From positions 1,196,501 through 1,260,500 of the forward strand of contig NZ_CP015247.1 in the NCBI RefSeq assembly GCF_001891125.1: a DNA stretch of 64,000 nt, written 5' to 3'. The notes below the pieces were generated by a model. It was not told the origin of the DNA and made no database searches. It saw only the letters and a list, made by a program, of their open reading frames with translations. Position numbers and translations under genes: made by a program. This document shows, in pieces, positions 2,696 through 33,062 of this stretch. Every line of letters begins with the position of its first letter. Within the stretch, counting starts at the first letter, position 1. This DNA comes from Leuconostoc suionicum. Its GTDB lineage: Bacteria > Bacillota > Bacilli > Lactobacillales > Lactobacillaceae.

Positions 2696-2703
2696 AAATA
2701 GTA

Positions 2704-2742
2704 TCTCCTAGTTTTTTTAAGCGGGATGGTTGATGAACCGCT
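2704..2742 (-). promoter_or_regulatory. preQ1-I riboswitch controlling queT
   Basis: On the minus strand the leader reads AGCGGTTC, a short loop, ACCATCCCGC, then TTAAAAAAACTAGGAG. This matches the class I preQ1 aptamer: a GCGG/CCGC P1 stem, a C-rich loop, and an A-rich tail that docks into P1. The tail ends in the AGGAG ribosome-binding site of queT, so ligand binding should hide the site and block translation. Only about 26 bases separate it from the rpoD stop codon. Confidence 0.9.
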
Positions 2743-2768
2743 ATTATTAAGTCTCAGAACATAATCAA

Positions 2769-21725: not shown

Positions 21726-24080
21726 TTATTTAGTCCCTTTTGATGTTCTATACTTAGCTCTTAATCCAGCTAACAAACCAACCTGTACCAATATTGCAAT
21801 TAAACTAGACAGCACACTAGCGTTACTAGTCCCTGTTTTTGGTAAGGATGAGGATGATGAAGTAGCGACTTTTGTACTCTCGGCTTTGTCATCATTTTCG
21901 CTTGTTATTGATGTTTTATTAGTGGCAGTCGTCACTGATAAAACATTGTCTGCGGGATCATTACTTGTTTGAAGCGTTTGTTCAGCATCGTTGCTTTCTG
22001 AGTCAGCCGTAACTGTTACAGTGCTGTCAAGTGACTCAACCGTATTGGATGAGTTTGTGTCCGTTTCGCCAATAGAGTCTTCTGCAACTACTGTTGAAGC
22101 ATCTTCTGTTTTGGGCGCTGACGATGTGGCCGAATCATTATCTGCTGACGCACTGTTATTAGTTGATTCTTGGGCATTGTTTTCAGAAGTACTTGGGATA
22201 CTCTCTCCTGATGGTGCTGACGGTGCACTATCCGGCTTATTTGCAGGTGCTTCTCCACTAGGAAAACTACCATTACCTGGAAAAGTTCCTTGACCAAATT
22301 GGCCATCTGGTGGTGTCCCCATGTTATCCATACCATCTACAGCGGTCATACCTGAGCCACCACCTTGACCAGCAATGATATCCTTTGAGGTACCGTTAAC
22401 GCTTACTTGATACGTTTCACCAGATACAATGCCCTCCGTTGAGATATTTAGATACGTTGTCGCGTCAGGAATAGTTGTGGAGAAAATTTCCTGCCCATCT
22501 TTTGAAATAACAATTGTTGCCCCAGCTGTTACGGATCCAATAGCTACATAGCTTTGAGTTGATTCCGTATCTGGCGTCCCTTCAGTTCCGGTTCCGCCCC
22601 AAATAATTGTTCCACCTGTAAATGTAATTGTCCCATCTGCATCAATCGCACCATTATCAGGCGTTGAATTAATTAAATCTATGATTGTACCGCCACTAAT
22701 ATTGATGTCACCGTTGGAATCTAACCCATCACCATTTCCTCGGATGGTTAAGATGCCACCATTAATATTAATTGCTTGTGTGTCAGTAGATCCTGCATCG
22801 TATTTAGTTTGATCTAACTGAGCATTGATAATATCGTCACTTGAATTCAGGTTAATCGTTCCACCGTTAATTGTTACGATTTCCCCTTCCAAAGCTTCAT
22901 ACGACTTAGTAATATTTAACGTACCAGAATTAATAGTTAAGGTACCATCAGAGGATATACCATTCATAGTTGAACTAATATTTAAGGTACCATCACCATC
23001 AATTGTTAAGTCGCCATTAGCATATATGGCGCCATTCGGATTTGTTGTATCTAATGACTCTTCATCTTCAACGACTACAGAAGTTGTGATATTATTTGTA
23101 CCCACTACTTCAATCGACAAACTACCAAATTGCTTACCATTAAGCACAGCACCAATTTGGTTGGCTAAATCAACATTGTTAAATACTAACTTTACTGCCG
23201 CAGTTATTGGTGCGTTAACAATTATTTGTGCATCAGTCGCTGTACCCTCAATATTGTAAGTCCCAGCTTCGTTAATTGTAACTGTGTTTCCATCACTAGT
23301 TGCACCATCTCCTGTAATTGTTGCTGAAGATGAATTGAATGTTATATTACTCGTGTTTCCCGTAGATGCATTTAACGTATTACTTGTTATGTCAGTCACG
23401 CTACTTGTTGTCTCGCCTGTACTATCAGAATCTGATTTTGATGTATCTGTCGTACTGCTCGTTGTCTCGCTTGTGCTATCAGCTGCTGTTGATGTAGCTG
23501 CCGCACTGCTTGTTGTCTCGCCTGTACTATCAGCCGTTGTTGACTCCTCTGTCGCACTGCTTGTTGTATCACTTGTGCTATCTGCTGTTGATGATGTATC
23601 CGTCGTACTGCTTGTTGTGTCACTTGTACTATCAGCCGTCGTTGATGTTTCCGTCGCACCGCTTGTTGTCTCGCTTGTGCTATCTGCTGTTGATGTTGAT
23701 GATGCATCCGTCGTACTGCTTGTTGTATCACTTGTACTATCAGCCGTCGTTGATGCTTCCGTCGCACCGCTTGTTGTCTCGCTTGTGCTATCAGCCGTCG
23801 TTGATGCTTCCGTCGCACCGCTTGTTGTCTCGCTTGTGCTCTCTGTTGTTGATGATGCATCCGTCGTACTGCTTGTTGTGTCGCTTGCACTATCTGTTGT
23901 TGATGCTGTGTCCGTCGTATAGATAGAGTCTGTCGATGTGGTATCCGCACTAGCAGTGATTTGACCAAGACCACCAATAACTAAGGCAGATAAACCAGCA
24001 AATAGCCAAACCTTACCAGCCTTATACATTTTATAGCGTTTTGAAATAACAGCATGTGCAACCTGAGACTTTTTATTCAT
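21726..24080 (-). CDS. LPxTG cell-wall protein with Ser/Thr repeats and a carbohydrate-binding beta-helix
   Basis: The 784-residue protein has a KxYKxGKxW-type signal peptide (KMYKAGKVW, residues 17-25) and a hydrophobic core to about 45. A low-complexity Ser/Thr/Ala/Asp region with 14-20 residue repeats (core ETTSGATEASTTADSTS) spans about 50-245. A region of stacked short strands with Asn/Gly/Asp turns (NGDLTIDGDGTLNISS, INGGILTIRGNGDGLDSNGD) spans about 250-560 and matches the Cthe_2159-type carbohydrate-binding domain (formerly DUF4353), a parallel beta-helix. A Gly/Pro/Asn then Ser-rich stalk follows, and LPKTG lies near residue 746 with a hydrophobic segment and positive tail for sortase. 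It should be a surface adhesin or polysaccharide binder. The start at 24080 has GAGG 6 bases upstream. The partner sortase and SecA2 genes are not here. Confidence 0.9.
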   Translation of the reverse strand: MNKKSQVAHAVISKRYKMYKAGKVWLFAGLSALVIGGLGQITASADTTSTDSIYTTDTASTTDSASDTTSSTTDASSTTESTSETTSGATEASTTADSTSETTSGATEASTTADSTSDTTSSTTDASSTSTADSTSETTSGATETSTTADSTSDTTSSTTDTSSTADSTSDTTSSATEESTTADSTGETTSSAAATSTAADSTSETTSSTTDTSKSDSDSTGETTSSVTDITSNTLNASTGNTSNITFNSSSATITGDGATSDGNTVTINEAGTYNIEGTATDAQIIVNAPITAAVKLVFNNVDLANQIGAVLNGKQFGSLSIEVVGTNNITTSVVVEDEESLDTTNPNGAIYANGDLTIDGDGTLNISSTMNGISSDGTLTINSGTLNITKSYEALEGEIVTINGGTINLNSSDDIINAQLDQTKYDAGSTDTQAININGGILTIRGNGDGLDSNGDINISGGTIIDLINSTPDNGAIDADGTITFTGGTIIWGGTGTEGTPDTESTQSYVAIGSVTAGATIVISKDGQEIFSTTIPDATTYLNISTEGIVSGETYQVSVNGTSKDIIAGQGGGSGMTAVDGMDNMGTPPDGQFGQGTFPGNGSFPSGEAPANKPDSAPSAPSGESIPSTSENNAQESTNNSASADNDSATSSAPKTEDASTVVAEDSIGETDTNSSNTVESLDSTVTVTADSESNDAEQTLQTSNDPADNVLSVTTATNKTSITSENDDKAESTKVATSSSSSLPKTGTSNASVLSSLIAILVQVGLLAGLRAKYRTSKGTK
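23400..23910. repeat. In-gene tandem repeats of about 51 bp
   Basis: The Ser/Thr-rich region of the surface protein is built from imperfect direct repeats; two neighbouring copies of a 51-base unit (17 codons, ETTSGATEASTTADSTS) near 23740-23850 are nearly identical, and shorter variants flank them. Such repeats tend to expand or contract by slippage or recombination. Confidence 0.85.
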
Positions 24081-24248
24081 TTTTTTCCTCACTTATTCAG
24101 TAGTGTTTTACCAGCAGAGATCAAATTACTCATTGAAAGTCACATCATTGTGACAACCCTTAATTGGCATACGTTTATCATATAGACTGGAAATTAAAAG
24201 AGGATTAATTTAAAATTCTATCAATATTAAAATCACTTCCAACATTGT

Positions 24249-24277
24249 TTGACAAAATATTTTATCTATAGTATATT
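24249..24277 (+). promoter_or_regulatory. Promoter of the cysteine operon
   Basis: TTGACA (24249-24254, perfect) and TATATT (24272-24277) are separated by 17 bases. Transcription should begin near 24284, so the leader RNA before cysK is about 230 bases. Confidence 0.85.
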
Positions 24278-24305
24278 TAACTCAATTCATAACTAGGAGT
24301 TCATT

Positions 24306-24380
24306 ATGGTGTTACCTTTTGCTACATTTAATTCAACATGCTGCAGTACAACGCGTTTTCGATGTTGTACTGTTTATTGA
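24306..24380 (+). CDS. Cys-rich leader peptide of the cysteine operon
   Basis: A 24-codon frame with AGGAG six bases before its ATG encodes a peptide with two Cys-Cys pairs: MVLPFATFNSTCC, then STTRFRCCTVY and TGA. The Cys codons are TGC TGC at 24339-24344 and TGT TGT at 24363-24368. Cysteine is otherwise rare in this genome's proteins, so four in 24 codons right before a cysteine-synthesis operon is hard to explain by chance. The first pair abuts the 5' arm of a 9-bp hairpin and the second lies at the start of its 3' arm. It is very probably a sensor of charged tRNA-Cys through ribosome stalling. The peptide itself need not have a function. Confidence 0.78.
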   Translation: MVLPFATFNSTCCSTTRFRCCTVY

Positions 24381-24475
24381 GCATGAATTTTTTGGGTATA
24401 TCATAACTTAAAATTTTCTACTTACACAGTTAAACTATCAAAACGCGGGAATTCAATTGAATTTTCGCGTTTTTT
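24330..24475 (+). promoter_or_regulatory. Transcription attenuator before cysK
   Basis: Two terminator-like structures lie after the promoter. The first has the perfect stem CAGTACAAC/GTTGTACTG (24344-24352 and 24364-24372), can extend outward through TGCT/AGCA and AATTCA/TGAATT, and is followed by six T at 24388-24393. The second is a 15-bp stem with G-U pairs, AAAACGCGGGAATTC/GAATTTTCGCGTTTT (24440-24473), ending in a T run, 38 bases before the cysK start. The loop of the first hairpin contains CGCGTTTT (24352-24359), the exact complement of AAAACGCG (24440-24447), and after one bulged C the next bases GAT match ATC just upstream. That pairing would break the second terminator, so it can serve as an antiterminator. 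Confidence 0.72.
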
Positions 24476-24512
24476 GTTTGTTTTTTACTAAGAAAATATA
24501 CAAGGATACATT

Positions 24513-25427
24513 ATGCTAATCAAAAACATACATCAATTAGTTGGCCAAACACCGATAATTGAACTGCAAATACCTGTCCCAAACCAAAGTCGCATTTTTG
24601 CAAAACTGGAGATGTTCAATCCTGGTGGTAGCATTAAAGACCGTTTAGGACAATTCTTAATATCAGATGCTTGGCAGCGAAATCTAATTAATCAAAATTC
24701 AACGATTATTGAACCGACTGCCGGAAATACTGGTATTGGCTTGGCATTAGCAGCGCAACAATATAAATTACCCACTATTCTTGTTGTACCTGAGAAATTC
24801 AGCGCTGAAAAACAGCAACTCATGAAAGCATTAGGCGCAACAATCATCAACACACCTTCTAGCGAAGGCATTAAAGGTGCCATTTCCAAAGCAAAAGCGT
24901 TAGCAGCCGAAATTGAAAACAGCTACTTACCAATGCAATTTGCTAATCCTGCTAATCCTGAAACATATTACCAAACGCTAGCACCAGAAATCGTTAAAGA
25001 CTTGAAAAACGAAAAGATTGATGCTTTTGTTGCTGGTGCTGGTAGTGGTGGAACTTTTGCTGGAATTGCCAAATACCTTAGTGAATATGATGCAACTATA
25101 AAAAATATTGTTGTAGAACCCGAAGGATCTATTTTAAATGGTGGCCCAGCGCATGCTCACCGCACAGAAGGTATTGGTGTTGAATTTGTGCCACCATTCT
25201 TCGAATCAATTCACATTGACAAAACATTAACTATTAGCGATGACAGTGCCTTTCAGCAAGTTCGATATGTTGCCGAGAACCTAGGACTTTTTATCGGTAG
25301 TTCAAGTGGCGCAGCCTTAGCTGCTAGTTTACAAATGGCAGAAACATTACCGCCACAAAGTAATATTGTCACGATATTCCCAGACAGCAGCGAACGATAC
25401 ATGAGCACAAATATTTATGGAAACTGA
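24513..25427 (+). CDS. cysK: Cysteine synthase / cystathionine beta-synthase family PLP enzyme
   Basis: The 304-residue PLP enzyme has the lysine that binds the cofactor in NPGGSIKDR (about residue 41), the TAGNTG substrate loop, [15 protein letters not shown] for the phosphate group and SSSGAALA near the end. It forms cysteine from O-acetylserine and sulfide, or cystathionine from serine (O-acetylserine) and homocysteine; members of this cysK-lyase-cysE cluster in lactic acid bacteria have been linked to the second reaction. The first gene after the Cys-codon leader, it is followed after 10 bases by the cystathionine lyase gene. The ATG at 24513 has AAGGA 7 bases upstream. Confidence 0.92.
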
Positions 25428-25437
25428 GGAAAGAAAA

Positions 25438-26577
25438 ATGAAATTTGATACACAACTTATTCATGGTGGCATTAGTCTTGACCAATCAACTGGCGCCGTA
25501 TCTGTCCCAATTCATATGGCTTCAACCTTTAAGCAAACTAAAATTGGCGAGGCAAAATATGAATATTCAAGATCTGGTAACCCAACTCGTGAAGCCGTAG
25601 AAAGCTTAATTGCAGACTTAGAAAATGGTACTGCTGGCTTTGCTTTTGCATCAGGATCTGCGGCGATAAGTACTATTTTTTCACTTTTTTCATCTGGGGA
25701 TCACATTATTGTTGGAAACGATGTTTATGGTGGTACATTTAGGCTAATTGACAATGTTCTAAAAAGAACAGGTCAGACATTTACAATTGTCGATACCCGT
25801 GATTTATCTGCTATTCAGGAAGCTATTCAAGATAATACTGTCGCCATTTACCTTGAAACACCAACTAATCCTCTATTACGCATTAGTGATATCAAGGCAA
25901 TTTCTGAACTTGCTCATCGTCATAATTTATTAAGTATTGTTGACAACACATTTGCTTCTCCCTATGTACAAAAACCAATTGATTTAGGTGTGGATATTGT
26001 TGTTCACAGTGCTTCAAAGTATTTAGGTGGTCATAGCGACCTTATTGCTGGCTTAGTTGTTACCAAAGGCGAGGAACTTAGTGAGAAAATTAAGTTCTTA
26101 CAAAATGCGATTGGTGCAATCCTGGCCCCTCAGGAAAGTTGGCTCCTACAACGAGGTATGAAAACGCTCGGTTTAAGAATGCGTGCTCACCAGTCAAATG
26201 CTCAAACAATATTTGACTACCTTAAAACACAAGATAAAGTTGCTAAGATATATTTCCCTGGTGATCCTGATAATCCTGACCACGCTTTAGCCAAACAACA
26301 GATGAATGGTTTTGGTGCCATGATTTCATTTGAGCTAAAGGTTGGGCTAGATCCAGAACAATTCATTAGTAACTTAAAAATCATTACCTTAGCAGAGAGT
26401 TTAGGTGCACTTGAAAGCCTAATTGAAATTCCAGCTAAAATGACTCACGGCGCCATTCCTCGTAATATCCGAATTTCTCATGGTATTCAAGACGAACTAA
26501 TCCGTCTCTCTGTGGGTGTTGAAGATATTGCAGATTTAATTGAAGATCTAGAACAAAGTTTTAATCAATTGAAATAA
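25438..26577 (+). CDS. Cystathionine gamma-lyase / gamma-synthase family PLP enzyme
   Basis: The 379-residue protein belongs to the Cys/Met metabolism PLP family: YEYSRSGNPTREAVESLIADL, FASGSAAIS, GNDVYGGTFR, ETPTNPLLRISDI, VDNTFASPYVQKP, and the PLP lysine in VHSASKYLGGHSD (about residue 195). Members cut cystathionine to cysteine (lyase) or make it (synthase) or release methanethiol from methionine. Sitting between cysK and cysE it is most likely the lyase of reverse transsulfuration (called ctl or cgl in relatives). The ATG at 25438 follows GAGGAAAG; it begins 10 bases after cysK stops. Confidence 0.92.
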   Translation: MKFDTQLIHGGISLDQSTGAVSVPIHMASTFKQTKIGEAKYEYSRSGNPTREAVESLIADLENGTAGFAFASGSAAISTIFSLFSSGDHIIVGNDVYGGTFRLIDNVLKRTGQTFTIVDTRDLSAIQEAIQDNTVAIYLETPTNPLLRISDIKAISELAHRHNLLSIVDNTFASPYVQKPIDLGVDIVVHSASKYLGGHSDLIAGLVVTKGEELSEKIKFLQNAIGAILAPQESWLLQRGMKTLGLRMRAHQSNAQTIFDYLKTQDKVAKIYFPGDPDNPDHALAKQQMNGFGAMISFELKVGLDPEQFISNLKIITLAESLGALESLIEIPAKMTHGAIPRNIRISHGIQDELIRLSVGVEDIADLIEDLEQSFNQLK

Positions 26578-26590
26578 TAGTGGAGAAAAA

Positions 26591-27085
26591 ATGTTTTTTA
26601 CTGCTAAATCAATTCTAAAGCGCGATCCGGCCGCAAAAAGCCTTGTGATGGTGATTTTAACTTACCCTGGTTTACATGCACTGTGGTTTCACCGCATTGC
26701 TCATTGGCTTCATATTCATCACCGTTATTTGCTTGCCGCTATCGTTGCTCGTTGGTCAGCCAAACGAACTGATATATTTATTGCACCCGGTGCACAAATT
26801 GGGCGTGGCGTGTTTATTGATCACGGCGTAGGTGTTGTTATTGGTGAAACTGCAATTATTGACGATGGTGTAACCATATTACATGGCGTCACTCTGGGTG
26901 CTCGTCATACGGTGACAGAACGTAGACACCCTCATATCGAGAGCTACAGCTTCATTGGTGCTCATGCGCAACTATTGGGCAATATTACTATCGGTGCAAA
27001 TAGTAAAGTGGGTGCTAATGCAGTTGTTTTAAACGATGTCCCCGCCTATTCTACTGCTGTGGGTAATCCTGCACGCCTAGTCTAG
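26591..27085 (+). CDS. cysE: Serine O-acetyltransferase, short form
   Basis: The 164-residue protein has the left-handed beta-helix acyltransferase fold: hexapeptide turns such as IFIAPGAQIGRGVFIDHGVG and VVIGETAIIDDGVTI, then LGARHTVTERRHPHIE. It makes O-acetylserine from serine and acetyl-CoA, the substrate of the cysK product. It lacks most of the N-terminal helical domain of the enteric enzyme (about 270 residues), as usual in Firmicutes. It is the last gene of the leader-cysK-lyase-cysE operon and begins 13 bases after the lyase. No strong terminator follows it directly. Confidence 0.93.
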   Translation: MFFTAKSILKRDPAAKSLVMVILTYPGLHALWFHRIAHWLHIHHRYLLAAIVARWSAKRTDIFIAPGAQIGRGVFIDHGVGVVIGETAIIDDGVTILHGVTLGARHTVTERRHPHIESYSFIGAHAQLLGNITIGANSKVGANAVVLNDVPAYSTAVGNPARLV

Positions 27086-27252
27086 TCGCTTTTTATCGAG
27101 ATCAATTAATGCGGTACCAATGCGTCATTTTTTTATGATTACTTTTATAATTTTGAGAATTAAGCCGTATATTTTTGTTTAAGCGTTTGTAAAGTGGTAT
27201 TCTTAAGTTACTAGCTCATTTAGAGTTAAGTAAAATTTATAAGGGGGTTCAT

Positions 27253-32844: not shown

Positions 32845-32904
32845 AAAACCACAGATTTTGTCAGGGTACAACAAAAAATGCAGCTTTCACTTTCTTTTTT
32901 AGAC

Positions 32905-33031
32905 TTCTTTATACCCGACTTTACGGTCGGCTCTGGATTTTGACCAGATCAGCTGCAAAAGCAGGTCGCGGGCTTACCATGAAAATTCATGTCTCACCGC
33001 CGGTTGGGAATCACACCCGACCCTGAAGTTA
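32905..33031 (-). promoter_or_regulatory. FMN riboswitch (RFN element) controlling ribU
   Basis: On the minus strand the conserved RFN blocks occur in order: CTTCAGGGTCGGGTGTGATT, CCCAACCGGCGGT, AAGCCCGCGA, GATCTGGTCAAAATCCAGAG, and GCCGACCGTAAAGTCGGG. Together they form the six-helix junction of the FMN aptamer. FMN binding should switch off the riboflavin importer. Confidence 0.96.
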
Positions 33032-33062
33032 TTATTAAATTTGATTTTATTGTATCACGGTG

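Follow-up and report, generated by a model that had tools for sequence, protein, structure and literature searches.

A candidate Cys-codon transcription attenuator upstream of the cysK-ctl-cysE operon of Leuconostoc suionicum and its relatives in the Lactobacillales

What controls the cysK-ctl-cysE operon of Leuconostoc suionicum, which lies behind a short reading frame with Cys codons and an intrinsic terminator? Control of amino acid genes in Firmicutes is usually ascribed to T-boxes and repressors; ribosome-mediated attenuators are known from the trp, his, leu, and ilv operons of enterobacteria. Analysis of the window (the whole stretch of 64,000 nucleotides around this locus) and of related genomes makes it very likely that a ribosome-mediated transcription attenuator that senses cysteinyl-tRNA controls cysK-ctl-cysE. 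Its anatomy, conservation, covariation, and state-dependent folding were computed, and four of the elements by which an attenuator is recognized are found: a conserved frame with a Shine-Dalgarno sequence (SD), tandem codons for the end product, a terminator candidate, and a mutually exclusive antiterminator.

The elements of the leader and the genes behind it are listed in the table. An original prediction, made from this DNA alone, had described a strong promoter, an AGGAG, a 24-codon frame with two Cys-Cys pairs, and a 9-bp hairpin overlapping the Cys codons, and each of these is present where it was placed. The 15-bp terminator is also real, with the full 15 pairs, but the spacer between its stem and the ATG of cysK is 39 rather than 38 bases. 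Similarly, the loop strand CGCGTTTT (positions 24352 to 24359) is the exact complement of positions 24440 to 24447, as had been proposed, but beyond the bulged C24360 there are four further pairs, not three (24361 to 24364 with 24436 to 24439, one of them G-U).

Table. Features of the leader and of the downstream operon (positions in the window)
Feature	Position	Strand	Basis or detail
Promoter, sigma-70 type, TTGACA-17-TATATT	24249-24277	+	11 of 12 promoter positions match
TTGACA box	24249-24254		spacer of 17 nt to next box
TATATT box	24272-24277
Shine-Dalgarno AGGAG of leader frame	24295-24299	+	read from sequence; SD in relatives too
Leader peptide frame MVLPFATFNSTCCSTTRFRCCTVY	24306-24380	+	ATG 24306, 24 codons, TGA 24378-24380
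Regulatory Cys codons TGC TGC (codons 12-13), predicted stall site	24339-24344	+	state-dependent folding
Second Cys pair (codons 20-21), in 3' arm of hairpin 1	24363-24368	+	folding: 0 antiterminator pairs
Hairpin 1 (1:2), 9-bp stem 24344-24352 / 24364-24372	24344-24372	+	folding, covariation
Antiterminator strand 2 (hairpin 1 loop and start of its 3' arm)	24352-24364	+	pairing, swap test
Antiterminator partner (strand 3), overlaps terminator 5' arm	24436-24447	+	pairing, swap test, folding
Intrinsic terminator hairpin (3:4), 15 pairs, T-rich tail after	24440-24473	+	terminator scan
cysK-like PLP enzyme (cysteine synthase / cystathionine beta-synthase type)	24513-25427	+	best NCBIfam model cysK, 314.9 bits (cut-off 350.95)
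ctl, cystathionine gamma-synthase/lyase family	25438-26577	+	best model 567.6 bits (under cut-off 642)
cysE / EpsC serine O-acetyltransferase	26591-27085	+	NF041874, 198.7 bits (over cut-off 150)

The promoter and terminator listed are the strongest of their kinds in a scan of positions 24100 to 27200. The numbers of sites in that scan were not above chance, with 10 promoter-like sites compared to 9.8 in shuffled sequences and one terminator-like site compared to 2.1, and the case that the leader did not arise by chance therefore rests on its relatives. The 200-nt leader itself folds more stably than its shuffled versions (z = −5.3; none of 200 shuffles was equally stable). Since the scores of the cysK- and ctl-like genes fall under the cut-offs of the curated models, their names hold at the family level. 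Divergently transcribed upstream of the leader (21726 to 24092, minus strand) is a gene for a Ser/Thr-repeat surface protein with a KxYKxGKxW signal, a Cthe_2159 domain, and LPKTG near its end. Elsewhere in the window, Rfam matches were obtained for an FMN riboswitch (32898 to 33034, minus strand) and a PreQ1 riboswitch (2702 to 2747, minus strand).

Homologues of this cysK were sought in 397 genomes of the family, 162 of which had a match at an E value of ≤1e-60. Down to an E value of 8.1e-72 there were 108 places, and removal of two without a gene start (G263:C15 and G371:C110) left 106 orthologues. In a further search, 60 of the 73 genomes with a match belong to other families of the order, and 37 of these were scanned. 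A leader was defined as a frame of 10 to 45 codons with at least two consecutive Cys codons and an SD, and dinucleotide shuffles and paralogous cysK genes served as controls for its frequency. Such a leader precedes 103 of the 106 family orthologues (4.1% of shuffles) and 32 of the 37 from other families (4.5% of shuffles), so that the conservation anticipated by the original prediction is borne out; three consecutive Cys codons are found before 67 of the 106 (0.2% of shuffles). Leader-bearing relatives include Ligilactobacillus apodemi, Marinilactibacillus psychrotolerans, and Enterococcus hermanniensis. A leader before any cysK whatever is ruled out, as only 1 of 20 paralogues (38 to 44% identity) has one, which is the level of the shuffles. 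Among the best 80 loci, none of the eight Bacillales-type relatives (L194, L195, and L197 to L202) carries the leader; the order is presumed from the organism names, L194 being taken as Bacillota. The window's genus is represented by 19 genomes, 7 of which yielded no cysK of this type at an E value of ≤1e-60.

The 143 loci scanned yielded 138 with a leader, which were used for tests of pairing, frame, and geometry; L071, L075, and L157 were admitted by a looser rule than that used for the count of 103 in 106. The five without a leader were L105, where a contig end cuts it, L133, L154, L159, and L162. A promoter-like site lies 5′ of the leader in 123 of the 138, by a loose scan without a control. 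An SD and ATG lie 8 to 16 codons 5′ of the Cys run, with no intervening stop codon, in 125 of the 138 leaders when the Cys frame is read and in none when either other frame is. The first of these figures is largely a matter of construction, because a Cys run and, except under a fallback rule, a start and SD in frame were required of the leaders; the zeros reflect the rarity of chance starts, and the count free of this bias is 103 of 106. The Cys run begins at codon 10 to 14 in 135 of the 138, counted from the start chosen by script, which sometimes took a later in-frame start (in the window GTG 24309, not ATG 24306), leaving Cys positions unaffected. The second Cys-Cys pair is real but not general, as only 29 of 138 leaders have another CC further along the peptide. 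In seven genomes of one genus (L034, L036, L049, L052, L055, L056, and L061), the terminator lies ∼170 to 320 bases before cysK, and in L034 a repeated hairpin-like unit, read on the other strand, stands between the two.

Pairing of the leader strands was assessed in alignments and across loci. In an alignment of 24 leaders, on which the tested structure of hairpin 1 had itself been drawn and which therefore favors it, 88.3% of cells were paired (69.3% when shuffled), two-sided changes occurred in 52 cells (20.4), and the covariation score was 0.603 (0.258), none of which was reached by any of 500 shuffles. Two further measures did not decide the matter: eight pairs had a two-sided change, compared with 6.3 in shuffles (38 of 500 as high), and there were 17 further pair types, compared with 17.0 (334 of 500 as high). 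Shifting the partner by one to three columns left at most 43% paired. A terminator candidate is present in all 138 leaders (a count without a shuffle control), and the strand just 3′ of the Cys run pairs with its 5′ arm to give the antiterminator.

The antiterminator was examined with a swap test, in which the two strands of 74 distinct, though mutually related, leaders gave a native duplex with a mean energy of −16.8 kcal/mol compared with −11.8 kcal/mol for swapped partners; none of 5,000 permutations reached the native value, and the native duplex was better than the median swapped partner in 68 of the 74. The complementary segments thus co-vary, as the original prediction had expected. Its position is also constrained: in 97 of 105 family loci the first paired base lies at +9 to +16, counted from the first base of the Cys run, compared with 29% of shuffled segments, and only 2.4% of shuffled segments fall there with an energy matching the native one. 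In an alignment of 11 closely related leaders, strand 2 has CGCG opposite CGCG in the arm in three rows and CACG opposite CGTG or CGTA in eight; the change in strand 2 is synonymous (ACG/ACA, Thr), and the co-change may be one evolutionary event. Taken locus by locus, no more than 76 of 138 leaders show a significant duplex (P ≤ 0.05), and in the CCCMV-type leaders (L160, L161, and L163 to L170) no significant simple antiterminator was found in 9 of 10.

The position of the ribosome was introduced into the folding. The front edge of a stalled ribosome was set at approximately +12, with the A-site codon's first base as the origin, and the RNA was folded from this edge to just beyond the 5′ arm of the terminator. 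In the window, the predicted antiterminator has 13, 10, 5, 5, and 2 pairs with the A site at codons 12 to 16, respectively, and none from codon 17. Stalling at the first Cys pair would thus free the antiterminator strand, as originally proposed, since a long antiterminator is predicted only with the ribosome on this pair (13 and 10 pairs). With the A site on the second pair it has no pairs, and on these folds that pair was rejected as a likely sensor; it is probably a by-product of the 3′ arm of hairpin 1.

The same profile was computed for the 105 family loci. An antiterminator of at least six pairs forms in all 105 with the A site at the first Cys codon and at the next codon, and in 86, 42, and 17 at +2, +3, and +4; the mean number of pairs falls from 12.3 at the first Cys codon to 3.1 at +4, and the stretch of high pairing coincides with the Cys codons. 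Antiterminators of this length return further along (24, 35, 32, and 25 of 105 at +5, +6, +8, and +10) and are found in 4 of 105 with the A site at the stop codon. In other families, with runs like CCCxCC, the permissive stretch is longer, and 28 of 33 loci still have the antiterminator at +6. The six-pair count is weak alone, as 72% of shuffled segments reach it, and the argument is carried by the swap test and the position; 10 pairs are reached by 47% of shuffled segments and by 98 of the 105 native ones. If no ribosome is present and polymerase has reached the 5′ arm of the terminator, the antiterminator is already the preferred fold, both in the window and in 66 of the 105 family loci. For the complete transcript, folding gives the terminator as the stable structure, and antitermination must therefore be kinetic.

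These folds suggest the following sequence of events. Transcription would start at approximately position 24284, judging from the promoter, and a ribosome would trail the polymerase on the leader frame. With ample cysteine, the ribosome would clear codons 12 and 13 and cover strand 2, allowing the terminator to form and transcription to end before cysK. When charged tRNA-Cys is scarce, the ribosome would stall as its A site takes up the first or second Cys codon. The greater part of the hairpin 1 5′ arm would then be masked, whereas strand 2 would stay free and could pair with positions 24436 to 24447 before the 3′ arm of the terminator exists, giving read-through into cysK-ctl-cysE. Translation of the leader, stalling, tRNA charging as the signal, and read-through in vivo are what we infer from this arrangement.

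The geometry would be equal if the leader peptide itself stalled the ribosome, with free cysteine, a thiol, or oxidants as the signal instead of tRNA charging, and in 94 of 138 leaders the Cys run does have Asn, Thr, or Ser ahead of it. The residues ahead of the run nevertheless vary widely and differ between clades, while the Cys codons alone are constant and are a synonymous mixture (290 TGT and 82 TGC). Arrest peptides are not known to vary so widely, and we consider nascent-peptide arrest improbable.

Direct binding of cysteine or tRNA-Cys by the 5′ untranslated region (5′-UTR), as a riboswitch or T-box with an incidental Cys-rich frame, would fit the frequency of T-boxes or S-boxes at sulfur genes of Firmicutes noted in PMC6004538, and the high 5′-UTR coverage reported there for a related operon is compatible with any premature terminator. 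The leader has no match to any Rfam family at gathering score, the best reaching 20.2 bits compared with the 58.7 required, and neither do 20 related loci, by which T-box, S-box/SMK-box, and other Rfam riboswitches or known RNAs were rejected. In addition, the frame and its Cys run are retained while the remaining peptide varies, and the available text of PMC6004538 reports that no T-box was found at the Lactobacillus paracasei operon; direct ligand binding is most improbable. That the palindrome is the operator of a transcription factor and the frame encodes a small functional Cys-rich peptide is scarcely credible, since, although PMC6004538 cites Liu et al. (2012) as having listed a similar motif and the palindrome is conserved, it has a T-run behind it and covaries with an upstream RNA strand, and the peptide beyond the Cys run differs between clades.

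The attenuator also bears on a published cysteine response. The cysK2-ctl1-cysE2 operon of L. paracasei FAM18149 is upregulated without cysteine and repressed by cysteine and, in the available text, has high read coverage of its 5′-UTR, no T-box, and a terminator motif, with a mechanism that “is yet to be discovered” in the words of its authors in 2018 (PMC6004538). On plasmid pFAM18149.25, the 5′-UTR of this operon carries the leader MSQSMFNAINCCCRTTRFWRCSAC, and the motif, as published, is exactly its terminator. The published response, as far as described there, agrees with control by an attenuator, which becomes a candidate for the missing mechanism by which the mobile cysK-ctl-cysE cluster of cheese lactobacilli responds to cysteine, a question left open in PMC6004538, and which predicts that mechanism codon by codon.

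The enterobacterial trp, his, leu, and ilv attenuators share with this leader a short frame with end-product codons, 1:2, 2:3, and 3:4 pairings, and an intrinsic terminator; here, the codons are for Cys, the order belongs to the Firmicutes, and the start of strand 2 falls within the hairpin 1 loop. Judged by its description, one close counterpart with Cys codons is the uORFC-8-2 motif before cysS of Rhodobacterales, for which a Cys upstream frame with a terminator was proposed: it has two tandem Cys codons (usually 14 and 15) in the first of two stems, a terminator, and equal proposed logic, but is alphaproteobacterial and precedes a tRNA synthetase gene (PMC8632094). Runs of Cys codons also characterize leader peptides at cys and cbs operons of Mycobacterium, Propionibacterium, and Bifidobacterium, but no conserved terminator hairpin was found at these, according to the text available, and Rho was suggested (PMC1262725). 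Leader-peptide attenuation in Firmicutes is represented by Rli60 of Listeria, which was tested by mutation and concerns branched-chain amino acids (PMC5864092), and by the hisS/hisZ leader of bacilli, with His rather than Cys (PMC2965389). The literature searched, which took in few subscription papers and no bioRxiv preprints, gave no account of such a leader with Cys codons from Lactobacillales; the mechanism is classical and, as far as searched, its cysteine-specific version is new for this order. Mycobacterial Cys leader peptides were reportedly the subject of later work by Canestrari et al.

The leader is not confined to the cysK operon. A covariance model (R1) of hairpin 1 and the frame was run on 201 family genomes, with strict filters that lose weak matches, and 47 genomes gave a match at an E value of ≤0.01 per genome, compared with approximately two expected by chance; the window's own genome has one match. 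Thirteen matches lie beyond the cysK operon (L302 to L314; E values of 1.9e-10 to 0.008). They stand before ctl-type genes, alone or first downstream (L303, L305, L310, and L311), ctl with a cystine-type ABC transporter behind it (L302 and L304), cystine-type ABC transporters (L308, L309, and L313), a metA-like gene with a further cysK after it (L307), a gene for an OppA-like binding protein (L306), and genes for SDF-family symporters (L312 and L314). The genes of L302, L309, and L311 were assigned by frame likeness, and most NCBIfam scores are under the curated cut-offs. The antiterminator is significant (P ≤ 0.035) in 9 of the 13, failing in L303, L306, L312, and L314. Four leaders have a broken run (CFC, CLC, and CPC) or, in L313, a single Cys (CAS) but keep the first Cys codon, and in three of these (L308, L309, and L313, not L303) the antiterminator is significant.

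Because the leader also stands before ctl, cystine transporter, metA-cysK, and symporter genes, this collection of cysteine and cystine operons looks like a regulon. What had been proposed as an attenuator before one cysteine operon is supported for that operon and extends to the order and to several operons. We think it rather probable that a single class of Cys-codon attenuator is a main control of cysteine supply across Lactobacillales, having spread or been copied among operons of transsulfuration, serine-acetyltransferase-like, and cystine-uptake genes, both chromosomal and plasmid-borne, that it fills the role of the T-boxes or CymR of other Firmicutes, and that its antiterminator is tuned at codon resolution to the first Cys codons. 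The regulator CmbR is confined to Streptococcaceae in the available text of a regulon study of lactic acid bacteria (PMC3616900). The results suggest that classical leader-peptide attenuation is used across a whole order of Firmicutes and at several operons, and the Cys leader offers a handle for annotating cysteine and cystine genes and for testing the control of sulfur flavor formation. In L302, a segment of ∼1 kb with short frames (about positions 530 to 1560) lies between the terminator and ctl and is possibly an inserted element.
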